DNA from: Prevotellaceae bacterium
Lineage (GTDB): Bacteria; Bacteroidota; Bacteroidia; Bacteroidales; UBA932
Reading direction: 5' to 3'
Length of the DNA: 64,000 bases
NCBI GenBank assembly: GCA_031269545.1
Contig: JAISYZ010000004.1
Span: 1-64,000, forward strand
Shown here: positions 1 through 63,836 of the stretch, piece after piece
How positions within the stretch are numbered: position 1 is the first letter of the stretch
How the letters are laid out: every line of letters starts with the position of its first letter
Made by a program: the position numbers and the translations under genes
Notes under the pieces: generated by a model
What the model was told of the DNA's origin: nothing
The model's database searches: none
The model's input: only the letters and a program-made list of their open reading frames with translations

Positions 1-306
1 AGGGTAAGACATATTTAATCAACTTTTCTAACATAACAAATAATAATTTTAAATTATGCAAAGATAATAATTTGAAGCGAATATCAAACATTGTAGACAC
101 AGGGTTTTGCTGGTGAGCCGAAGCAATCCAGAAAATTATTTGCCATTTTTTCATTGTTTATTTTTCTGGATTAACTCCGCTGCGCTTCGGTTGCTTCGTC
201 GCTGCGCTCCTCGCAATGACGTGCTGCTTGCTTTTATGTCAAAATAAAATTGACAGAAATAATGTCGTATTATTGCTGATTTTTTTATTTTTAAGGACTG
301 ACTATA
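1..306 (-). repeat. Dispersed hairpin element, copy F (REP-bearing, one end only)
   Basis: Gene-free stretch. Bases 285-306 hold one end of the dispersed element (TTTTTAAGGACTGACTATA, the inverted repeat read on the minus strand). Bases 150-290 are nearly identical to 46735-46885, including a REP-like block ending CTCCTCGCAATGACG. A second REP-like piece, GAAGCAATCCAG, lies at 120-131. The opposite terminal repeat is not in the window. The end lies about 36 bases past the folB stop codon. I see nothing else in bases 1-100. Confidence 0.7.
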
Positions 307-3426: not shown

Positions 3427-4434
3427 TTATCTTTGCACTTTAACATTGTTGTCGCAATCTAAATCTTTCAACTTTGTATATTTACTAATATCCAAAGTTG
3501 TTAAACGATTATTGGTACAATCTATTTTTTTTAATTCAGGACAATTGATAATATTCAGACTCGTTAATTGATTATAGGAACACCGTAATTCTGACAATCT
3601 CGGGCAATTGCTAATATCCAAAGTTGTTAATTGATTATAGTTGCACCATAATTCTACTAATTTCGGACAATTGCCAATATTCAGACTCGTTAATTGATTT
3701 TGTTCGCAATATAATCCTCTTAACTCCTCGTTATATTTATTTACAACCAAAGTTGTTAATTGATTTTGCTGGCAACGTAAATACATTAATCTACTACATT
3801 TACTTATATCCAAAGTCGTTAAGTTATTTTCGATGCAATCTAAATGTCTCATCTCAGGACAATTACTAATATCTAAACTTGTTAATTGATTATTGTCGCA
3901 TGATATCCATTCCAACTTCGGACAACTACCTATATTCAATCTTGTTAATTGATTTTTGTGGCAAAATAAAGTTTGTAACTCTGTGCATTTACTAATATCT
4001 AAATTTGTTAAACGATTATTGGTACAATATATTTTTCTTAATTCAGGACAATTGATAATATTCAGACTCGTTAATTGATTATGGGAACACCGTAATTCTT
4101 GTAAATTATCAACAGTTATAACAATATTATGCAATTTTTCATCTATATATTTGTGAAAAAACACTAACCAATCATCGTCGTTTATTTTACTATCATTAAT
4201 GTTTGATATTGCCCCGTCTCCCCATTTAATTTTTATATTTGTAGCATCTTTACTTAATAAAACTGAAACTGAAACCTCTCTCTTGTAAGATTCCATTATA
4301 ATCTGTTCTTTCTGTTTACAAGCAATTACTGTTAATATCAACAGTATTAGACCAAATAATTTTATTTTTTTTATGTGTTTATATTTTTTATTTGTCTTAT
4401 AATCATTCCCTTGTGTGTCCGAATTTTTTATCAT
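3427..4434 (-). CDS. Leucine-rich-repeat lipoprotein
   Basis: A 335-residue protein. A long basic N-region leads into a hydrophobic segment ending LILTVIAC, a lipobox whose Cys is near residue 39, so it is probably an envelope lipoprotein. After a linker containing IKIKWGDG come about eleven 21-residue repeats of the form L..L.C..NQLTSLDISNCP (about residues 108-330), typical of Bacteroidetes extracellular LRR proteins. Such domains usually bind proteins; the ligand is unknown. At the DNA level, repeats 1-2 and 9-10 are almost identical, so copy number could change by recombination. It stands alone, with a REP-like sequence upstream. Confidence 0.85.
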   Translation of the reverse strand: MIKNSDTQGNDYKTNKKYKHIKKIKLFGLILLILTVIACKQKEQIIMESYKREVSVSVLLSKDATNIKIKWGDGAISNINDSKINDDDWLVFFHKYIDEKLHNIVITVDNLQELRCSHNQLTSLNIINCPELRKIYCTNNRLTNLDISKCTELQTLFCHKNQLTRLNIGSCPKLEWISCDNNQLTSLDISNCPEMRHLDCIENNLTTLDISKCSRLMYLRCQQNQLTTLVVNKYNEELRGLYCEQNQLTSLNIGNCPKLVELWCNYNQLTTLDISNCPRLSELRCSYNQLTSLNIINCPELKKIDCTNNRLTTLDISKYTKLKDLDCDNNVKVQR

Positions 4435-4495: not shown

Positions 4496-4556
4496 GTAGC
4501 TCCCATCTGGATTGCTTCAGGCTAACGCCTTCGCAATGACGTTCTCTTAATTGTTA
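4496..4556. repeat. REP-like intergenic repeat
   Basis: The stretch contains TCTGGATTGCTTCAGGCTAA and CTTCGCAATGACG, the same sequence family as the REP-like blocks at 118-215, 46618-46811 and 46948-47010. Confidence 0.6.
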
Positions 4557-18154: not shown

Positions 18155-18300
18155 AAATGAACTGCGAAAAACGAAAACACTGCCGTTAAAAAAATGACTG
18201 TTCGACTGTCGGTTTAAAAATATTTATTAATTTCGCGGTATGATTATGCAAAAAAAATACCATGACGAAAACGATGACATATTTGTACAGTAGATTTTCG

Positions 18301-18537
18301 CTCTCGGGGCTGAACGGCTCGCTCTCGGGGCTGAAAGGCTTGCTCTCGGGGCTGAAAGGCTTGCTCTCGGGACTGAACGGCTCGCTCTCGGGGCTGAAAG
18401 GCTTGCTCTCGGGACTGAAAGGCTCGCTCTCGGGAATGAATGGCTCGCTCTCGGGACTGAAAGGCTCGCTCTCGGGGCTGAATGGCTTGCTCTCGGGGCT
18501 GAACGGCTCGCTCTCGGGAATGAATGGCTCGCTCTCG
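18301..18537. repeat. 21-bp minisatellite 1 (11 units)
   Basis: Eleven complete direct units of exactly 21 bases, consensus CTCTCGGGGCTGAAMGGC plus a TYG tail, then a broken twelfth unit. Variation is limited to a few positions (gg/ga, aac/aaa/aat, cg/tg). The period is a multiple of 3, so frames stay open on both strands and the ORFs here are by-products. The GC content is far above that of neighbouring DNA. There are no spacers, so this is not CRISPR. The array ends 60 bases before the start of the next gene. Confidence 0.97.
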
Positions 18538-18596
18538 TGTGCAAATATTTAAAATGGAGTTATACACTTAATATTAATAATAAAAAACAAAAGATT

Positions 18597-29675: not shown

Positions 29676-29683
29676 TAACTTTG
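29676..29683 (+). promoter_or_regulatory. -7 promoter motif for the MORN protein
   Basis: TAACTTTG followed by C. The expected transcript start lies only a few bases before the ATG at 29696, and the motif overlaps the TTG at 29681. This argues against the TTG as start and predicts a very short leader. Confidence 0.55.
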
Positions 29684-29695
29684 CAACAAAAAAGA

Positions 29696-31480
29696 ATGTA
29701 TAATAAAAAAATTTTAATACCATACTTGTTATTATTTTATTTCGGATTGATGTCTGTTTGCGCTCAAACTGAACATATAAACGATTTGTGGAAGAAATCA
29801 AAAATCGAAATACAAAACGCTAATTATAAATCGGCTTGTGATTTACTTTCTGAAATAATAAATTTATCGAATAGAGCCGATACTGTCTGTATAAAATCAA
29901 AAATTGCAATGGCGCAAATTTTAGGCGATATTGGCAAAATTGATACTATGAATGTAATTATTTCGGAACTTTCATCTTATCAATCAACGCATTTCGACAA
30001 TGCAGAAGTCGCAGCCGACATAAAAGCGCTCATTGCTTACAGCAATGAAATTTCCAGAAAAAACACAGATTTCAAAGATGATATATGCGGAATTTGGATT
30101 TCGGATTATGCGTCAGATGCAAGCGGCGTTCCTTTTCTTGCCTTAAAAATAATGAAACGCGGAAAAGATTATGTCATGCAAATATTGCCTTACTGTTCGT
30201 TTGCAACATCAAACAAAATGTACACAAAAACTCCGTACAGGCATATTTCGCAACGTCCCGCAACATTCGGAAATAAACCTGATATACATAATAATCAGGC
30301 GCGATTGTTTTTTGGCGATGAAAATTTCAAAAAAGGAAATGTGCTTGCGGCTCAAATGGGAGCATTCATGACTTTGGGATTGGGCGAAGCAATTATAAGC
30401 AATATCGAATCGAACAGCGACAACTCTTCGATTGTTGGAGATATTGCGAAAATTGCAGTTGTATCTCTTGCAACAAATATTGTTGCAAGTCTGTTTTCGC
30501 GTTTGTCAGTATCAAAAAAGACAATAACGACTTACGATATGCTAATGGAACGTTTGTTTGCAGGATGCGCCGATTTGTATCTTCAACAAAACATATTTAT
30601 AAAAAAATCGAATGGATATCAGGAAGAAAAATCTTCTACAATAAAGTTTATGATGTACAAACTGTATCCCGAATATGATATAATTTTTATGACAAAACAA
30701 CGCGAAATATTTGGATACAAAGAATTTACCAAAATTGAAACCGTCAATCACGAACAATATAAAACGGCAAAAACAAATATATGCGATTTCAACCGTCAGT
30801 CTTACGAAAAATTGAAAGAGAAAACAGCGCATTTTTATACATCAATATTGAAAAAACAGAATGATGATTTATTGAAAAATATTTACGAAAATTTCAAATA
30901 TTCAACGCAGGGACTTTTATATTCGGAACAGAAATTAAGAAACGGCGTTTACAAAGGCAGAGTTAATTCGGCAGGCGTACGCAACGGCTACGGACATTAC
31001 AAATGGAACAACGGAAATCAGTACAATGGCGAATGGAAAAATGGCAACATGGACGGTTTTGGACAAATACTATTTGCCAATGGCTCGGAATACACAGGAA
31101 ATTTATCGAAAAACCAAAAACACGGGCAGGGAACTTTTAAAAATTCGGACGGCGAATATAGAGGCGGATTTTACAATGATAAATACGATGGCGAAGGCGA
31201 ACTCATAAAAGCCGATGTTACAATAAAAGGCATTTTCAAAAATGGAAACATCGTTAAGGGTAAAGAAATTTATGCCAGCGGCGATGTTTTTGAAGGACAG
31301 TGGAACCGGCATAAAAATATACGAAACGGAAGAATGACATACGCCAACGGCGATTGTTATGCAGGACAATGGTTGCTGCAAAATGGAAAATGGATGAAAG
31401 AAGGCAACGGTTCAATGACTTGCGTCAATGGCGAAACATTAATCGGCAAATGGAAAAACGACGAATTTAAAAACAAATAA
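29696..31480 (+). CDS. Secreted MORN-repeat protein
   Basis: A 594-residue protein starting at the ATG at 29696, with a signal peptide (YLLLFYFGLMSVCAQ). The N-terminal half is helical with no recognised enzyme motif. It includes a hydrophobic stretch near residues 220-270 (GAFMTLGLGEAIISN, IAKIAVVSLATNIVASLF). The C-terminal 170 residues carry about seven MORN units, for example YNGEWKNGNMDGFGQILFANG and YTGNLSKNQKHGQGTF. MORN repeats usually mediate binding to membranes or partners. The function here is unknown. The TAA stop is followed directly by a dispersed-element end (TCAGTCGC). Confidence 0.85.
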   Translation: MYNKKILIPYLLLFYFGLMSVCAQTEHINDLWKKSKIEIQNANYKSACDLLSEIINLSNRADTVCIKSKIAMAQILGDIGKIDTMNVIISELSSYQSTHFDNAEVAADIKALIAYSNEISRKNTDFKDDICGIWISDYASDASGVPFLALKIMKRGKDYVMQILPYCSFATSNKMYTKTPYRHISQRPATFGNKPDIHNNQARLFFGDENFKKGNVLAAQMGAFMTLGLGEAIISNIESNSDNSSIVGDIAKIAVVSLATNIVASLFSRLSVSKKTITTYDMLMERLFAGCADLYLQQNIFIKKSNGYQEEKSSTIKFMMYKLYPEYDIIFMTKQREIFGYKEFTKIETVNHEQYKTAKTNICDFNRQSYEKLKEKTAHFYTSILKKQNDDLLKNIYENFKYSTQGLLYSEQKLRNGVYKGRVNSAGVRNGYGHYKWNNGNQYNGEWKNGNMDGFGQILFANGSEYTGNLSKNQKHGQGTFKNSDGEYRGGFYNDKYDGEGELIKADVTIKGIFKNGNIVKGKEIYASGDVFEGQWNRHKNIRNGRMTYANGDCYAGQWLLQNGKWMKEGNGSMTCVNGETLIGKWKNDEFKNK

Positions 31481-31500
31481 TCAGTCGCTTTTTTAAAAGA
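31478..31500 (+). repeat. Outer terminal repeat of nested dispersed element (copy B')
   Basis: TAATCAGTCGCTTTTTTAAA matches the reverse complement of the right end of copy B at 31784-31803 (TAATTAGTCGCTTCTTAAAA) better than copy B's own left end does. It overlaps the MORN gene stop codon. Confidence 0.6.
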
Positions 31501-31522: not shown

Positions 31523-31803
31523 AATTAGTTTCTCCTTAAAAGCAATATTTTTTAGACACAAAAATTAATAAACAGGCATTTTAAACCTAGCAGGTTTTTA
31601 AAACCTGTTAGGTTTGAGCATGATGGCTGTACCATCAGGGACATTTTCAATTGAAAATTATCTGTGTAATGATTTATAAGAAAATTTTTATATTTGCAGG
31701 GTTTTAACTTGTATTGCGCAAAACCTTGCAATTTTTTCATCTGATTTCTATTTATAATTATCTATTAATAAATAATTTATGTCCTTTTAAGAAGCGACTA
31801 ATT
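31523..31803 (+). repeat. Dispersed hairpin element, copy B (complete, 281 bp)
   Basis: The terminal inverted repeats are AATTAGTTTCTCCTTAAAAG and CTTTTAAGAAGCGACTAATT. Inside are three modules: a near-perfect hairpin at 31583-31615 (AAACCT...AGGTTT), a block containing CATCAGGGACATTTTCA, and a second hairpin at 31694-31732 followed by six Ts. There is no coding capacity. It fills most of the gap between the convergent MORN gene and hutI. Confidence 0.85.
31694..31738 (+). terminator. Element-borne terminator-like hairpin
   Basis: TTGCAGGGTTTT pairs with AAAACCTTGCAA across a 14-base loop, followed by TTTTTT. The same structure recurs at 61146-61190 in copy C. Confidence 0.55.
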
Positions 31804-45202: not shown

Positions 45203-46483
45203 ATGATACCTCTTGCAGAACGTATGCGCCCAAAATCGCTCGAAGATTATATAGGACAACGGCATCTTGTAGGCAAAGGCGCTATTTTGCGCAATATGAT
45301 TGAGTCGGGAAACATCTCGTCGTTTATACTTTGGGGTCCGCCCGGAGTTGGAAAAACTACTTTGGCGCGAATAATTGCCGAACAGCAAAAGCGCGTATTT
45401 TTCAGTCTTAGTGCAATAAATTCGGGCGTCAAAGATGTGCGCGAAGTTATCGAAAAAGCCAAGTCGCAACGATTTTTCAACAGTCCAAGTCCTATTCTTT
45501 TTATCGACGAGATTCACCGTTTCAGCAAATCGCAACAAGATTCGTTGCTTGGAGCGGTAGAGCAGGGCGTTATTACGCTGATTGGCGCAACCACCGAAAA
45601 TCCATCCTTTGAAGTTATTTCTCCTTTACTTTCGCGATGTCAGGTTTATGTACTCAGATCGCTCGATATCGATGATTTGCAGATTTTATTAAATCGCGTC
45701 ATTAAAGAAGATGAAGATTTGAAAAAACTGAAATTCGACGTTCAGGAAGTCGGAGCGCTTTTTAGATTTTCGAGCGGCGATGCTCGCAAACTTCTTAATA
45801 TTCTCGAAATAATTATCGGAACTTATGCCGAAAATGAAACTGTCGTGATAACCGATAAAATTGTAGCCGACCGTTTGCAGGAAAATATTGCGCTGTACGA
45901 CAAAAGCGGCGAACAGCATTACGATATTATTTCGGCATTCATAAAATCGATGCGGGGAAGCGATCCTAATGCCACAGTGTATTGGCTTGCGCGAATGTTG
46001 AATGGCGGCGAAGATCCGCTCTTTATTGCCCGTCGAATGTTGATTCTTGCAGCAGAAGATATTGGACTTGCAAATCCTAATGCCTTGTTGCTTGCCAACG
46101 CCTGTTTTGATGCAGTACATAAAATAGGTATGCCCGAAGCGCGTATAATTTTGTCGGAAACGGCTGTTTTTTTGGCAACATCCGCCAAAAGCAATTCTAC
46201 CTATATGGCAATAGAAGCCGCTTTTGCCGAAACAGTTGACACAGGCGATTTGTCTGTGCCTCTGCATTTGCGCAATGCTCCAACAAAATTGATGAAAAAT
46301 TTGGGTTATCACAAAGGTTATAAATATGCTCACGATTACGAAAATAATTTTGTTGAACAGGACTTTTTACCCGAAAAAATCAAAGATAAGATATTTTATC
46401 ATCCAGCCGAAAATGCCCGCGAACGCGAAATACTCGCACGTCTTGCATTATTGTGGAAAAAGAAATATAAAATAAATAATTAG
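45203..46483 (+). CDS. rarA: Replication-associated recombination protein A
   Basis: A 426-residue AAA+ ATPase of the RarA/MgsA/WRNIP1 family, which acts at stalled replication forks and binds SSB. Walker A is LWGPPGVGKTTLAR, Walker B is ILFIDEIHRFSKSQQD, sensor 1 is GATTENPSF and the arginine-finger region is LLSRCQVYVLRSL. The C-terminal tetramerisation domain includes ISAFIKSMRGSDPNA and ARRMLILAAEDIGLANP. The protein is full length. Its TAG stop codon is the first part of the terminal inverted repeat of dispersed copy A, so an insertion has set the exact end of the gene. Confidence 0.95.
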   Translation: MIPLAERMRPKSLEDYIGQRHLVGKGAILRNMIESGNISSFILWGPPGVGKTTLARIIAEQQKRVFFSLSAINSGVKDVREVIEKAKSQRFFNSPSPILFIDEIHRFSKSQQDSLLGAVEQGVITLIGATTENPSFEVISPLLSRCQVYVLRSLDIDDLQILLNRVIKEDEDLKKLKFDVQEVGALFRFSSGDARKLLNILEIIIGTYAENETVVITDKIVADRLQENIALYDKSGEQHYDIISAFIKSMRGSDPNATVYWLARMLNGGEDPLFIARRMLILAAEDIGLANPNALLLANACFDAVHKIGMPEARIILSETAVFLATSAKSNSTYMAIEAAFAETVDTGDLSVPLHLRNAPTKLMKNLGYHKGYKYAHDYENNFVEQDFLPEKIKDKIFYHPAENAREREILARLALLWKKKYKINN

Positions 46484-46898
46484 TCGCTCCTTAAAAGCGT
46501 TGAAATCATTTATTACAAACAAGTTATAAATGCAAATTACCGAATAAAAATACCGTATTTTACATACATACAGGCTAAAAGTCGGCAAAACATGAACAGT
46601 TTTTTCCTTCTTTGTGTTCGTCATTGCGAACTGCGAAGCAGGAAGCAATCCAGAAAACACGTCATTGCGAGGGCGTTAGCCCGAAGCAACCGAGTTTACG
46701 AGCTCGGCGCAGCCAATCCATTTTGTTTATGTTTGTTTTTCATTGTTTATTTTTCTGGATTAACTCCGTTGAGCTTCGGTTGCTTCGTCGCTGCGCTCCT
46801 CGCAATGACGTGCTACTTGCTTTTATGTCAAAACAAAATTGACAGACATAATGTCGTATTATTGCTGATTTTTTTATTTTTAAGGAGAAACTAAATAG
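46479..46898. repeat. Dispersed hairpin element, copy A (about 420 bp, REP-bearing)
   Basis: The left end AATTAGTCGCTCCTTAAAAG overlaps the rarA stop, and the right end is TTTTTAAGGAGAAACTAAAT; the two are inverted copies. The interior has two facing REP-like blocks (46618-46720 and 46750-46811). The stretch 46735-46885 nearly duplicates 150-290. No gene is supported; the 100-residue ORF at 46592 is a by-product. Confidence 0.85.
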
Positions 46899-47075
46899 CT
46901 ATTAAAAGGCTGTTTTGATGGTGGTTTGGCATAATTTGATTTTGTTTCTCATTGCGAGGAACAAAACAACGAAGCAATCCAGACAATTATATTATTCTGA
47001 ATTGCTTCTTGTTTTTGAAGTATATCTGTTCTGTTAACGACTGATATAGTGATAATTAAATAATTTTTTCATATA
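46899..47075. repeat. Second REP-like sequence beyond copy A
   Basis: CTCATTGCGAGGAACAAAAC followed by ACGAAGCAATCCAG at 46948-46992, with a facing TGAATTGCTTC at 47008-47018. It forms an imperfect hairpin downstream of the GH51 gene. Nothing else is seen here. Confidence 0.55.
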
Positions 47076-57194: not shown

Positions 57195-57330
57195 TAATTG
57201 TCAAATAAAATTAGCCCTGACGGGACAGCGAGCATCATAAAACCTAACAGGTTTCGGAAACCTGTTAGGTTTAAAATGTCTGGTTATTAATTTTTGTGTC
57301 TGGGAATTGTTTTTAAGGAGAAACTAAATA
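57195..57330 (-). repeat. Dispersed hairpin element, copy D (half element)
   Basis: Read on the minus strand it starts TTTAGTTTCTCCTTAAAAAC and follows copy B through GACACAAAAATTAATAA, a perfect AAACCTAACAGG stem-loop (57240-57272) and a GTCCCGTCAGGG block. It then stops without the second half. It lies 100 bases ahead of the EamA gene. Confidence 0.8.
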
Positions 57331-57431: not shown

Positions 57432-58325
57432 ATGCAAAACGAAAAGGTTTCATACAAAATTTATATTCAGATAATTCTCGCTAATGTCTTTTGGGGATTT
57501 TCGTTTGTATGGACGGATATCATTCTTAAATCGGGCGTTATGCCAATTACGCTTGTTCTGATTAGAATGATTCTCGCAACTGTTTTACTTGGTTTGTGGG
57601 CAAAACATACGGGAAGTATTCAAAAAGTCAAATTCAAACATTTGAAATATTTTTTAGGATTGTCAATGTGCGAACCGTTTTTATATTTTTTGTGCGAAAC
57701 CTACGGGCAAACAATGGTATCGCCGACAGTTACAAGTGTTATTGTAGCAACAATTCCGCTGTTTACAACCGTTTTGGGTTTTATCGTTCTGAAAGAGAAA
57801 ATCGGTTGGGCTACGGTTGTCGGCGTTATGATTTCGATGGCTGGAGTAGTTGCCGTCGTTTTTGTCGGCGAAAACGATTTCAGCGGACAGTTTATCGGCG
57901 CTGTTTTGGTTTTCGGCGCTGTTGTTTCTGCCCTCGGATATGCTGTTTTTGTAAAATATATAATGCATCGATACAATGCAACTACTCTCGTTTTTTATCA
58001 GAATTTCATTGGTTTGATATATTTTATTCCATGTTTTCTCATTGTCGATGCTTCGCATGTAAGCGATATGAGATTTACGTTTGATGTGATTTTTTCTCTC
58101 GTTCAACTTTCTGTTTTTGCATCGGTTATCGCTTTTATTTTTTATTCAAATTCAGTAAAAGTCTTAGGCGTAACAAAATCGGGAGTATTTTGCTATATAA
58201 TTCCCGTACTGACTGCTTTGTTTGCATTTTTCATGGTGGATGAACATCTTGGAATGATGCAGTGGTTTGGAATGCTTGCCGTAATATCAGGCTTGTTTAT
58301 TTCACAATTGACAAAGTCAAAATAA
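57432..58325 (+). CDS. EamA/DMT family transporter
   Basis: A 297-residue membrane protein with ten hydrophobic helices in two repeated halves, each an EamA domain (about residues 10-140 and 155-292). The first half begins IILANVFWGFSFVWTDIILK, and the second ends MMQWFGMLAVISGLFISQL. The family exports or imports small metabolites such as amino acids; no substrate can be assigned. It is expressed alone, converging on the tRNA-Gly gene. Confidence 0.92.
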   Translation: MQNEKVSYKIYIQIILANVFWGFSFVWTDIILKSGVMPITLVLIRMILATVLLGLWAKHTGSIQKVKFKHLKYFLGLSMCEPFLYFLCETYGQTMVSPTVTSVIVATIPLFTTVLGFIVLKEKIGWATVVGVMISMAGVVAVVFVGENDFSGQFIGAVLVFGAVVSALGYAVFVKYIMHRYNATTLVFYQNFIGLIYFIPCFLIVDASHVSDMRFTFDVIFSLVQLSVFASVIAFIFYSNSVKVLGVTKSGVFCYIIPVLTALFAFFMVDEHLGMMQWFGMLAVISGLFISQLTKSK

Positions 58326-59208: not shown

Positions 59209-60525
59209 TTATTTTGCTTTAACAAATATTGAAAGCGCTTTCGCATCTTTTGAGCCGTCGGTAAGCGATTCTGCTGTATCGTTTATCCATATTTTGGCTA
59301 CAGTTTTATTTGTGCTTGCAGTTTCGTCTCCTGCCACATATACCTTTCCTTCTGCCACTGCAACGGAATTAGCATGAGCAAATGCCGAACCGTCGGTAAG
59401 CGCAGTTCCCGTGCCGTTTTTCCATACTTTGGCTGCATCTGCATGCATTCCTTCTTTTTCGTTTCCTGCCACATATACATTATTATCCGATACGTAAACC
59501 GAGCGTATCTGCGCATTTTTATTGGCAGCAAAGTCCTCCGCTACTCCGTTTTTCCACAGTTTGGCAACAAATGCTGTTCCATTTTGTTCATGTCCTGCAA
59601 CATATACATCGCCGTCTGCAATAAAAACCGAAAAAGCATCTGTATCTTTTGAGCTGATGCCAAGCTGATACAGCAAATTATTGTTTTTCCATACTTTGGC
59701 TACATATTTGTTTCCGTTATGTTCGTATCCTGCCACATATACATCGCTGCCTGAAACAAAAATTGATCGAGCTTCGGCAGAATTTGAGCCATTGGTAAGC
59801 GGAGTAGCCATGCCGTTTTTCCATACTTTAGCTATGTTATGGTAACTTGAATTTCCTTCGTATCCAGAAACATGTACATCGTTGCCCGACACGTAAACAG
59901 AAAGCGCTTCTGACGCTTCTGTGCCGTCGAGCTGTAAGGTTTGAGGAGCGCCGTCTTTCCATAATTTAGCTACCCTACGACCTGACTCATTTGTTTCAAA
60001 TCCCGCCACGTATGTTGTGCTGCCTGAAACAAAAATTGATTTTGCTTCGGCATCGTATGTGCCGTTGGTAATATTTAATAATTCTTCGCCGTTTTTCCAA
60101 ATTTTGGCTACGCTTTTTCCGTTTGTGTTTTTTTCATATCCTGCCACATATACATCATATACGTTCACAGGTTCTTTTACTGTTATGGCGCAGGTAATCG
60201 CTTTATTGCCTGCTTTGGCTGTAACGGTCGCCGAACCTGATGCTATAGCAGTTATTAAGGCGGTTTTTAATCCTGTAGAGCCTACGGTAGCAATGCTTTC
60301 GTTGTTGCTTGTCCACGTTACTGTGCTGTCGGTAGCATTTTCGGGAGCTACTGTTGCCGTCAGACTGTATTTTTCTCCGACATTTAATGTGACAGTTGAC
60401 TTGTTAAGCGCAATACTGCTAACATCAACAGTATGAGGTGTTCCGGGAGTAACAGAATCATCTTTGCTGCACGAAGCAAACATTAGCAGCACACAGACTG
60501 CAATCAGTTGAATTTTTTTTGTCAT
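59209..60525 (-). CDS. Surface lipoprotein with a BIG2 domain and propeller-like repeats
   Basis: A 438-residue lipoprotein (VCVLLMFASCSKDD, Cys near residue 19). Residues 35-117 are a bacterial Ig-like group 2 domain (VSSIALNKSTVTLNVGEKYS, VTWTSNNESIATV). The rest is about seven repeats of some 46 residues, each holding VYVAGYE, AKVWKNG and SIFVSG motifs, which suggests a beta-propeller-like fold. There is no enzyme signature, so binding or adhesion is plausible. It is alone on its strand, with a long leader (a -7 motif is at 60711-60718). Confidence 0.85.
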   Translation of the reverse strand: MTKKIQLIAVCVLLMFASCSKDDSVTPGTPHTVDVSSIALNKSTVTLNVGEKYSLTATVAPENATDSTVTWTSNNESIATVGSTGLKTALITAIASGSATVTAKAGNKAITCAITVKEPVNVYDVYVAGYEKNTNGKSVAKIWKNGEELLNITNGTYDAEAKSIFVSGSTTYVAGFETNESGRRVAKLWKDGAPQTLQLDGTEASEALSVYVSGNDVHVSGYEGNSSYHNIAKVWKNGMATPLTNGSNSAEARSIFVSGSDVYVAGYEHNGNKYVAKVWKNNNLLYQLGISSKDTDAFSVFIADGDVYVAGHEQNGTAFVAKLWKNGVAEDFAANKNAQIRSVYVSDNNVYVAGNEKEGMHADAAKVWKNGTGTALTDGSAFAHANSVAVAEGKVYVAGDETASTNKTVAKIWINDTAESLTDGSKDAKALSIFVKAK

Positions 60526-61003
60526 AATTTATTGTATTTATAAAAATTTTGCTATTAATTCTTTTATCGGCTTTCTTTTTCGCTAATCATTCGGTATTTA
60601 TCTCTAAATTAATATTTCTACGTTGATACGAGTATAAACCTCGCATCTAACTTTATTGTAGTCAAACACATATACGTGAAAACATTACTACAATAAACCT
60701 GAAATTTATACAAAAGTAAAAAAATATTATTAAATAACAATAAACAGTCGTTCATTAAAAAGCAAAATTTTCAGATACAGAAATAAATCAAGCAGATATT
60801 TTTCAAAATCCTCTGTCGGCGAAGGCTCTGTTCAATGTCATCAGGTTAAGATGAATAAGGCAATGAGGTTAAGGAATATTATTCAATACTTCGTTATAAA
60901 ATAGTTTATTTACTTTTACTGTTGACCTTGATTTTTTTATTTTCATTATCTTTATAATTGTTTGAGTATTAAACTGTAAAGGTACGGAATTTTCAAATAA
61001 AAT
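60526..61003. other. Gap upstream of the BIG2 lipoprotein
   Basis: Contains the minus-strand -7 motif TACTTTTG (60711-60718) and the degraded element copy G. Bases 60815-61003 show nothing I can name. Confidence 0.5.
60741..60810 (+). repeat. Dispersed element fragment, copy G
   Basis: AACAGTCGTTCATTAAAAAG is a variant of the terminal repeat. The next 45 bases follow copies B and H (AAAATTTTCAGATACAGAAA). The right half is missing. Confidence 0.6.
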
Positions 61004-61257
61004 AAATAGTCGCTCCTTAAAAGTTATTTTGCAGAGATAAATGTTTTGTCTGACAGATTTGAGAATGATGACCGTCTCTGACGAGACATTTTCATTGGCA
61101 ATTATCTTATCTGTTTAATGATTTTATAAGAAGATTTTTAAATATTTGCAGGGTTTTAACCAACACAAGCACAAAACCTTGCAATTTTTTACAAATATTT
61201 TTATTCATAAATTATTAACTATCAATATGTTGTTTTCTTTTTAAAGAGCGATTAAAT
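61004..61257 (+). repeat. Dispersed hairpin element, copy C (complete, 254 bp)
   Basis: The left end is AAATAGTCGCTCCTTAAAAG and the right end CTTTTTAAAGAGCGATTAAA, inverted with few mismatches. The interior shares the CTGACGAGACATTTTCATTG block and the TTGCAGGGTTTT hairpin (61146-61184, followed by six Ts) with copy B, but lacks the AAACCT hairpin. Confidence 0.85.
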
Positions 61258-61388: not shown

Positions 61389-62576
61389 ATGTCCAAAATA
61401 ATATTAAAACATAATCGAGACGAATCGCTGAAACGTTTTCATCCGTGGATTTTTTCAGGCGCCATTGCACAGTATATTGACAAGCCAAACGAAGGCGATG
61501 TTGTTGATGTTTTCACTTCTGATAACCAATTCATTGCACGCGGACATTATCAGACAGGTTCAATCACCTGCCGAATATTAACTTTTGAAAATGAAGAAAT
61601 CGACAAAAACTTTTGGCGCAAACGAATTTCAAACGCATACAAATTACGCAAAAAATCAGGACTTGCAGAAAACGAAAACACTACCGCATATCGTCTTGTG
61701 CACGGCGAAGGCGACATGCTGCCCGGACTGATTATAGATATTTACGGAAAAACAGCGGTAATACAAGCCCATTCGACCGGAATGTTCTGCGAACGTCAAA
61801 CAATTTGTGAAATATTAATGGAAATATTCGATAATAAACTTGCAGCCATTTACGATAAAAGTTCTGCAACGCTTCCGTTCAATAAAAATCAGGATACGGC
61901 AGATGAATATATCATTGGCAGTAAAAGCGAAAATGGCGAAATAATATTGGAAAACGGGAATAAATTCATTGTCAATCCCGAAAGCGGACAAAAAACAGGA
62001 TTTTTTATTGACCAGCGCGAAAATCGCAAAATTTTAGAACAATATACATGTAACGCAAATGTTCTCAACGCATTTTGTTATACGGGCGGTTTTTCGGTTT
62101 CGGCATTTTGCGGCGGCGCAAATCTTGTTCATTCGGTTGACAGTTCGCAGAAAGCCATCGATTTGACGCAAAAAAATGTAGAACTTAATTTTGGCAAACA
62201 GGTCAATCATCAAACCTTTGTTGATGATACATTTTCGTTTATACGAAATGCAGAAAACAATTTTTACGATGTAATAATTCTTGATCCTCCGGCATTTGCA
62301 AAACACAATTCGGCGGTGAAAAATGCTATTCAGGCATACAAAAGACTTAATGCTGCCGCTATTGCAAAAATAAAACCTTCAGGAATTTTATTTACATTCA
62401 GTTGTTCGCAGGCGGTTGACAGAACTAATTTTCGCAATGCCGTTTTTTCGGCAGCAGCCATAAGCAAGCGGAATGTCCGCATTTTACATCAACTTACACA
62501 GCCTGCCGACCATCCTGTGAATATTTATCATCCCGAAGGCGAATATCTGAAAGGACTTGTACTTTATATAGAATAA
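61389..62576 (+). CDS. Class I SAM-dependent rRNA methyltransferase, RlmI-like
   Basis: A 395-residue protein. The N-terminal PUA domain (about 1-75: ILKHNRDESLKRFHPWIFSG, GDVVDVFTSDNQFIARGHYQ) binds RNA. The Rossmann domain has VLNAFCYTGGFSVSAFCGGA, the acidic SAM ligand in LVHSVDSSQKAID, and DVIILDPPAFAKH. The tail FSCSQAVDRTNF holds the Cys found in 5-methylcytosine enzymes. E. coli RlmI makes m5C1962 in 23S rRNA, and this is the likely reaction. The transpeptidase gene follows by 12 bases. Confidence 0.9.
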   Translation: MSKIILKHNRDESLKRFHPWIFSGAIAQYIDKPNEGDVVDVFTSDNQFIARGHYQTGSITCRILTFENEEIDKNFWRKRISNAYKLRKKSGLAENENTTAYRLVHGEGDMLPGLIIDIYGKTAVIQAHSTGMFCERQTICEILMEIFDNKLAAIYDKSSATLPFNKNQDTADEYIIGSKSENGEIILENGNKFIVNPESGQKTGFFIDQRENRKILEQYTCNANVLNAFCYTGGFSVSAFCGGANLVHSVDSSQKAIDLTQKNVELNFGKQVNHQTFVDDTFSFIRNAENNFYDVIILDPPAFAKHNSAVKNAIQAYKRLNAAAIAKIKPSGILFTFSCSQAVDRTNFRNAVFSAAAISKRNVRILHQLTQPADHPVNIYHPEGEYLKGLVLYIE

Positions 62577-62588
62577 AATTATCGGAAA

Positions 62589-63101
62589 ATGAAAAGAATA
62601 TTTGTATTTATAATGACAGTAATAATAGCCTGCAACGTTTTGGCTCAAGATTCGTTCATAATAATTTCAAAACAGGATATGAAATTGCGAAGATACGACT
62701 TTGCAGGAAATGTTGTTGAAGAATATCCTGTTGCCTGCGGGCGCAATTACGGCAATAAAAAGAAAAGAGGCGACAACAAAACTCCCGAAGGCGTTTTCAC
62801 TGTTCAGCAAATTCAAAATGCATCTGCGTGGACACACGATTTTGGCGATGGCAAAGGACAAATAAAAAATGCATACGGACAGTATTTTATTCGCCTGAAA
62901 ACGGGATTTCAGGGAATAGGAATTCACGGAACACATGCGCCAGAATCAATAGGAACGCGAGCAACAGAAGGCTGTATAAGATTGAGAAACGAAGATTTGC
63001 TTAAACTTGTAAAAAACATAAAACTTTCGATGGTTGTAATTATCACAGCCTCATCCGAAGACGTTCTTGCCGATTATAAAACAAAAGGAAACAATCCGTA
63101 A
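62589..63101 (+). CDS. L,D-transpeptidase (YkuD family)
   Basis: A 170-residue secreted protein with a signal peptide (MKRIFVFIMTVIIACNVLAQ). The YkuD domain starts FIIISKQDMKLRRYDFAGNV. The catalytic motif is GIGIHGTHAPESIGTRATEG followed by CIRLRNEDL, holding the active His and Cys. Such enzymes cross-link peptidoglycan (3-3 links) or attach lipoproteins; small stand-alone forms like this are common in Bacteroidetes. It starts 12 bases after the methyltransferase gene and is probably co-transcribed. A 21-bp minisatellite begins about 100 bases after the stop. Confidence 0.92.
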   Translation: MKRIFVFIMTVIIACNVLAQDSFIIISKQDMKLRRYDFAGNVVEEYPVACGRNYGNKKKRGDNKTPEGVFTVQQIQNASAWTHDFGDGKGQIKNAYGQYFIRLKTGFQGIGIHGTHAPESIGTRATEGCIRLRNEDLLKLVKNIKLSMVVIITASSEDVLADYKTKGNNP

Positions 63102-63204
63102 GAATTGTATTTTTCTATTTTTTTTGTTCTGCGGGCAAAAGAAACAAAAGGCAATTAAACTTCATGCTGACCTGAACATCCAAAATGTTGACGAAAATAT
63201 CCAA

Positions 63205-63535
63205 AATGAGGAAGTAAACATTCGAGATGAAGAAGTAAACTTTTGAGATGAAGAAGTAAACTTTTGAGATGAAGAAGTAAACTTTTGAGATGAAGAAGTA
63301 AACTTTCGAGATGAAGAAGTAAACTTTCGAGATGAAGAAGTAAACTTTCGAGATGAAGAAGTAAACTTTCGAGATGAAGAAGTAAACTTTTGAGATGAAG
63401 AAGTAAACTTTCGAGATGAAGAAGTAAACTTTCGAGATGAAGAAGTAAACTTTTGAGATGAAGAAGTAAACTTTTGAGATGAAGAAGTAAACTTTTGAGA
63501 TGAAGAAGTAAACTTTCGAGATGAAGAAGTAAGCA
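63205..63535. repeat. 21-bp minisatellite 2 (about 15 units)
   Basis: Fourteen full units of exactly 21 bases, GATGAAGAAGTAAACTTT plus YGA, from 63226, with a degenerate unit before and a partial unit after. The only frequent variation is C/T at one position. The plus strand has stops in each unit; the minus strand stays open in two frames, giving spurious ORFs. No spacers are present. Its period equals that of minisatellite 1, though the sequences are unrelated. Confidence 0.97.
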
Positions 63536-63540
63536 ATTAT

Positions 63541-63705
63541 CAATAAAAAATGTCCCGTCAGGGACAGAATATTGGTAGAAAAAGAATCGCTCTTGGCATT
63601 TCGCGCGAGTTACCGACTGTTTTTCATGTCATCGGCAATGCTTCGCGCGAAAATCTCGGCGGCTATTATGTTTCTACCAACGTTTTGTCCATAGCGGGAC
63701 ATTTT
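63541..63705. repeat. Long nested inverted repeat within copy E
   Basis: The arms AATGTCCCGTCAGGGACAGA and, from the right, AATGTCCCGCTATGGACAAA continue into TTGGTAGAAA on both sides. Inner arms TTTCGCGCGAG and CTTCGCGCGAAA pair too. The whole 165 bases could form one long hairpin. No ORF is supported. Confidence 0.75.
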
Positions 63706-63836
63706 CATTGACAATTATCTATCTAATGATTTATAAGAAGTTTTAAACCTGACAGGTTTCGGAAACCTGTCAGGTTTAAAATGTCTGGTTATTAATTTTT
63801 TGTATTCGTAAATCTCACTTTTAAGGAGAGACTATT
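63706..63836 (-). repeat. Dispersed hairpin element, copy E (end and hairpin module)
   Basis: The minus strand reads AAATAGTCTCTCCTTAAAAG, then AATTAATAACCAGACATTTT, a perfect AAACCTGACAGG stem-loop (63745-63777), and the ATAAATCATTAGATAGATAA block in the orientation opposite to copy B. The element's end overlaps the rny stop codon. Confidence 0.8.

Follow-up and report, generated by a model that had tools for sequence, protein, structure and literature searches.

Organization of the repeat at 31527-31799

A short non-coding repeat of 273 bp, denoted copy B, occupies positions 31527-31799 of the window, the 64-kb stretch of Prevotellaceae DNA analysed here. The direct 4-bp sequence AATT is found on each side of it. 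The preliminary description placed the element at 31523-31803; that interval includes the target duplication, since the AATT repeats flank 31527-31799. Between two terminal inverted repeats, copy B features in succession the AAACCT hairpin (HP), a degenerate GTCCC block, and the LINK and TTGC modules (Table 1). Its folding exceeds that of dinucleotide shuffles on the two strands (z = -6.0 and -5.7).

Table 1. Copy B, its modules, and the other family members found in the window
Feature	Position	Strand	Evidence
Partial copy, REP block and T3 end	147..304	+	95% identity to 46736-46893 (D6)
Degenerate extra end B', just past the stop codon that ends upstream ORF 29681-31480	31483..31500	+	17 bits
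Left 4-bp target-site duplication AATT, copy B	31523..31526	.	identical to 31800-31803
Complete MITE, copy B, type T1-HP-GTCCC-LINK-TTGC-T2, 273 bp	31527..31799	+	ends of 26 and 31 bits; module map
Left terminal inverted repeat AGTTTCTCCTTAAAA, followed by T1 subterminal sequence	31527..31541	+	end profile
HP module, AAACCT..AGGTTT hairpin	31583..31615	.	direct-repeat family D10; paired in predicted fold
Degenerate GTCCC/GGGAC module, boundaries approximate	31621..31646	+	alignment score over threshold
LINK module	31645..31687	+	84% identity to 63702-63744 (D20)
TTGC module, 12-pair stem TTGCAGGGTTTT/AAAACCTTGCAA, then TTTTTT	31694..31737	+	35 copies, 32 distinct
Right terminal inverted repeat AGTCGCTTCTTAAAA, T2 end	31785..31799	-	end profile
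Right 4-bp target-site duplication AATT, copy B	31800..31803	.	flank 4-mer comparison
Complete copy T3-REP-REP-T4, 411 bp, T4 end left, adjoining the stop codon of ORF 45203-46483	46482..46892	-	end profile, module map
Partial copy, T1 end and HP	57195..57325	-	81% to copy B; end 25 bits
Partial copy, single T1-type end	60746..60791	+	26 bits
Complete copy T5-GTCCC-LINK-TTGC-T6, 246 bp, target-site duplication AAAT/AAAT, T6 end homologous to IS5 5' noncoding end	61008..61253	+	end profile, flanks, alignment, module map
Partial copy with LINK, HP and T1 end	63702..63833	-	repeat comparison and end profile

The end motif TTAGTCGCTCCTTAAAAG, searched with up to three mismatches, has eight matches in the window against 0.1 expected, and no shuffle gave as many. 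Ten window ends score above 10 bits with a 24-column end profile. Only three of the copies are complete, all others being partial. The profile recognizes lone ends at 31483, 57325, 60746 and 63833, and the end at 303 is a seed match with two mismatches. Complete and fragmentary copies counted together, the initial estimate of nine or more in 64 kb is a fair one, but both ends are found in only three.

Tandem repeats overlapping ORFs or internal to them are also found in the window, at 3445-4099, 18256-18579, 59252-60156 and 63101-63595 (63, 21, ~135 and 21 bp, respectively). In almost every congener, the genes that adjoin some of the copies (45203-46483, 57432-58325, 61389-62576) have other neighbours, and MITE copies may sit at rearrangement breakpoints. 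Two MITE copies are located upstream of 61389 in the window; nine congeneric loci share at this place one closely spaced upstream coding sequence.

Abundance and distribution of the family

The motif AGTCGCTCCTTAAAA, allowing one mismatch at most, is found at 94 sites in the 2,945,087-base genome, and the reversed motif at none. The terminal repeat common to dispersed copies, as originally proposed, is confirmed. A sample of 1.19 Mb of own-genome DNA surrounding the end sites, the window counted in, hosts 181 ends that the profile scores over 10 bits; a reversed control gives about 6. Both ends could be paired in 42 copies of this sample, which vary in length from 57 to 529 bp. The family amounts to about 100 short non-coding copies in this gut-type Bacteroidota genome, a minimum figure because the genome is a fragmented draft, in which contigs often break at these repeats. 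Complete copies are up to 94% alike in the genome under study and up to 96% in the congeneric genome G001, and T3/T4 elements of G000 and G006 are ~76-78% alike across 400 bp.

The end motif is found also in congeners and in other Bacteroidota. At least 110 stretches were retrieved by scanning GTDB contigs; the matches listed include many Prevotellaceae MAGs of the genus, as well as Dysgonomonas, Prevotella, Leyella, Flavobacteriaceae and further Bacteroidota. In four G001 copies (L181, L213, L303, L312) the terminal repeat of one end is present twice, at a distance of 26 bp. A common composite is seen at L073:1508-1539, L103:4585-4616 and L139:10280-10311, where one end lies nested 31 bp within a T2 end; the nested element may have been amplified as a whole. 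Pairs of family ends spanning 82 bp are found at L290:2539-2620 (Prevotella sp. OH937_COT-195) and L284:263-344, and in the former the two ends fold back on each other almost perfectly.

Rfam returned nothing but a sub-threshold match to a nematode snoRNA, and no match was found in the phage records searched. In the open literature searched, the end sequence was met only as primer coincidences; an autonomous IS with these ends may already have been named.

Fixed ends and variable interiors

Six end types and a set of internal blocks account for the copies in the genome. The commonest plan is T1-HP-GTCCC-(LINK)-(TTGC)-T2, followed by T3-REP-REP-T4, T5-GTCCC-LINK-TTGC-T6 and T5/T1 forms. Ends are paired mostly as T1/T2, T3/T4, T5/T6 or T5/T1, and the use of modules is therefore not a free mixing. 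Evolution by module exchange, as put forward in the preliminary description, is partly borne out by reassorted copies such as T5-GTCCC-LINK-TTGC-T2 (L074) and T1-HP-GTCCC-TTGC(inverted)-T6 (L069), but most copies keep to a few fixed plans.

The modules named at the outset are real. Element territory makes up 3.9% of the sampled own DNA, and in the 1.19 Mb the HP hairpin occurs 127 times inside and 44 times outside it, the GTCCC palindrome 92 and 13 times, respectively. Both blocks are rare or absent in G001 and G006, where copies hold other interiors. The REP-like block, a palindrome of the form CGTCATTGCGAG...GAAGCAATCC, does lie within some copies, but is to be regarded as a separate repeat, because 38 of its 70 occurrences are outside elements. 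It is found in the window at 46620-46700, 4506-4542 and 46949-47001, and at many other loci. A Y1 transposase gene located at C29:6616-6960 could be the partner of this repeat.

Target duplication and empty sites

The sequence immediately outside the ends fits T-AWWT. Among 73 complete copies from three genomes, 21 feature identical direct 4-mers at the two sides, whereas 2000 shuffles gave a mean of 10.1 and a maximum of 20. Unusual flanks are matched too, as in ACCT/ACCT, ACAT/ACAT and ACTT/ACTT. Identical flanks are kept in only ~29% of paired copies, and the mismatch in the remaining ~70% fits decay and recombination between copies.

Two copies are inserted in repeated host sequences, of which uninterrupted paralogues are present in the same genome. 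When L086:12472-12891 is compared to L068, and L078:9365-9529 to L130 and L091, removal of 4 bases gives the best fit in all three comparisons; against L090, removal of 0 bases from L078 scores one point better than 4. The paralogue of the window copy at 61008-61253 is just an approximate empty site, best fitted at 1 bp rather than 4. These empty sites are paralogous ones; comparison between species gave no clean orthologous case, because the genes surrounding the copies are too extensively rearranged. Taken together, the excess of flank repeats and the two paralogous empty sites with a clean 4-bp duplication demonstrate transposition, and the sequence duplicated is a 4-bp AWWT within T-AWWT-A.

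Relationship to IS5 elements

Among the matches listed, elements of 1.43-1.50 kb have family ends on both sides (L256, L271, L296, L307, L308, L317), and AATT flanks both sides of L271, L296 and L317. The reading frames of L296, L307 and L308 are intact, and score 402-491 bits on the NCBIfam model NF033578 (IS5 family, cut-off 275); the encoded transposases feature DUF772 and DDE_Tnp_1 domains. L308:5224-6652, from Leyella lascolaii, exemplifies these autonomous elements. Homology to IS5 transposases is found within 700 bp inward of 29 of the 113 end motifs listed from other genomes, and outward of none (0/113). Outside the listed Prevotellaceae, an inward IS5 transposase is associated to 19 of 36 end motifs.

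No intact IS5 transposase exceeds the cut-off in the genome under study or in its 10 congeners (0/11), but IS5 fragments are found in 9 of the 11, several adjoining family ends. A remnant in the genome under study (L071:1712-2176) stops 48 bp short of a family end at 2225, and congeneric fragments lie near family ends in G001 (L201) and G006 (L232, L228). L232:1-1065 consists of two tandem fragments, corresponding to the N-terminal part of IS5 only, both of which have a 5' terminal repeat of their own. End pairs set 0.6-4.5 kb apart in the own genome, G001 and G006 were considered as autonomous copies, and discarded as no transposase was found in them by inspection; the intervening ORF examined, in L181, is a host gene, CoA-transferase/hydrolase-like by sequence.

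The T6 end aligns to the congeneric IS5 5' noncoding end for at least 60 bp past the terminal repeat, with scores of 77-82 against shuffle maxima of 51-57. The T2 end has a weak similarity (p<0.005 in one copy, p=0.02 and p=0.07 in two others), and no convincing match past the terminal repeat resulted from aligning T1, T3, T4 and T5 to IS5 ends. MITEs hence share ends with the IS throughout, and internal descent is demonstrable in one end type.

Origin and mobilization

The repeats very probably derive from IS5-family insertion sequences, and would be moved in trans by them. The early suggestion of a MITE mobilized by a transposase encoded elsewhere is supported. The family of that transposase can be specified as IS5; elements with matching ends are found in other Bacteroidota. 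The transposase would bind the common terminal repeat of ~12-15 bp (core AGTCGYTCCTTA), so that anything lying between two such ends would be mobilized. Interiors would change as segments are deleted, other palindromic repeats nest in them and copies recombine with one another, a free turnover from which lineage-specific mosaics, and the lack of matching target duplications in most copies, would follow. Intergenic sites on the 3' side of genes would be retained because they are the least harmful. As only IS5 remnants were found in the assembly, current mobility is doubtful, or needs a copy that was lost or collapsed when the genome was assembled; the fragmented draft could lack an intact IS5.

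Other routes of mobilization appear far less plausible. RUP is an IS630-related element with a TA duplication, and is not related to IS5. A RUP- or Correia-like MITE of the IS630/Tc1-mariner type, duplicating TA, would account for the TA conserved at positions -5,-4 outside the ends, but is highly improbable: flanking 4-mers and empty sites point to a duplication of 4 bp instead of TA, the transposases bounded by family ends are IS5, not IS630, and a search of the genome for a DDE_3 transposase gave no match. This hypothesis was dropped accordingly. IS1634 and IS1182 are both present in the genome, and IS1634 remnants adjoin family ends in L099 and L125. These elements, however, terminate in CCTGACTTCG.., GGGGCTGTCTC.. 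and CCCTAACTCCGC.., which differ from the MITE ends AGTCGCTCC, and in L072 one of them has no MITE end next to it; the adjacency was attributed to nested insertion, and either IS is a most unlikely partner. It is equally hard to credit that the repeats are immobile palindromes of the REP/BIME kind, spread by a RAYT (Y1) transposase. Both the Y1 gene and the occurrence of REP-like blocks within and outside copies would suit this origin, but precise terminal repeats, 4-bp duplications and IS5 elements with matching ends speak against it, and the REP block, which some copies lack, is only a passenger.

Position relative to genes, and possible role as terminators

By crude ORF calls, on which all position statistics rest, 38 of 90 copies are located in convergent intergenic spaces against 12.4 expected from the available bases (p = 4e-11), 15 are in divergent spaces against 27.7 expected, and only 3 of 93 fall inside called ORFs. 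The TTGC hairpin TTGCAGGG, followed in one direction by a T-run, is found in 35 copies, 32 of which distinct, and each stem pair is kept in 27-32 of the latter. Crowding between convergent genes, avoidance of ORFs, conservation of the stem and its one-directional T-run, and the stable fold of copy B would all be accounted for if elements inserted by IS5 were then selected between convergent genes, and kept as mobile, possibly bidirectional, intrinsic terminators or mRNA 3' ends. The bias in position is, however, explained just as well by purifying selection against the disruption of genes and promoters. Where copies lie in tandem spaces, the hairpin with its T-run is oriented as the genes in 10 cases and opposite to them in 15, and T3/T4-type copies lack the TTGC module altogether. 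A simple terminator scan detects none in copy B, as the loop exceeds the rule of the scan. Retention as terminators, a secondary role suggested at the outset, is on balance unlikely. A more elaborate version, according to which the elements would be portable bidirectional terminators, selectively retained, with interiors swapped as cassettes between fixed IS5 ends, is more doubtful still; if true, mRNA 3' ends in the genus would be partly supplied by a MITE family.

The IS5-derived MITEs described are a new and well-supported family, of a kind of element already known. Repeats so far unlabelled are assigned to a family with a transposase type, a core (AGTCGYTCCTTA), a 4-bp AWWT duplication rule and a Bacteroidota-wide host range. 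The family accounts for many of the breaks between contigs in these drafts, and illustrates clearly how interiors can turn over between constant ends. It also supplies mobile terminator-like hairpins, at the 3' ends of genes, that can be put to the test.

Comparison with known elements

The IS5-family elements (NF033578) with AGTCGYTCCTTA ends of other Bacteroidota have identical terminal repeats and, in L271, L296 and L317, an AATT duplication; these are 1.43-1.5 kb long and host a transposase gene, which the MITEs lack. The closest precedent is provided by Porphyromonas gingivalis, where four IS5-type MITEs (BrickBuilt, MITE239, MITE464/PgRS and MITE700) have terminal repeats matching those of the full-length IS5-family elements ISPg1/3/4/9 (PMC4596501). 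There too, in a member of the Bacteroidota, short non-coding intergenic copies fall into types with common ends and differing interiors. P. gingivalis MITEs, however, terminate in GAGACC.. or ACGTCA.., which are different ends, have interiors made of tandem repeats rather than hairpin modules, number 10-20 copies per type, and feature irregular target-site duplications in place of the 4-bp AWWT. The Neisseria ATR element (ISNme1-type) is similarly a MITE related to IS5, and goes together with a distinct REP-type repeat, but differs in end sequence and host (PMC4596501). BOX, RUP and SPRITE of Streptococcus pneumoniae, an unrelated host, are likewise modular and nested, and contain terminator-like hairpins (reviewed in PMC10969869).
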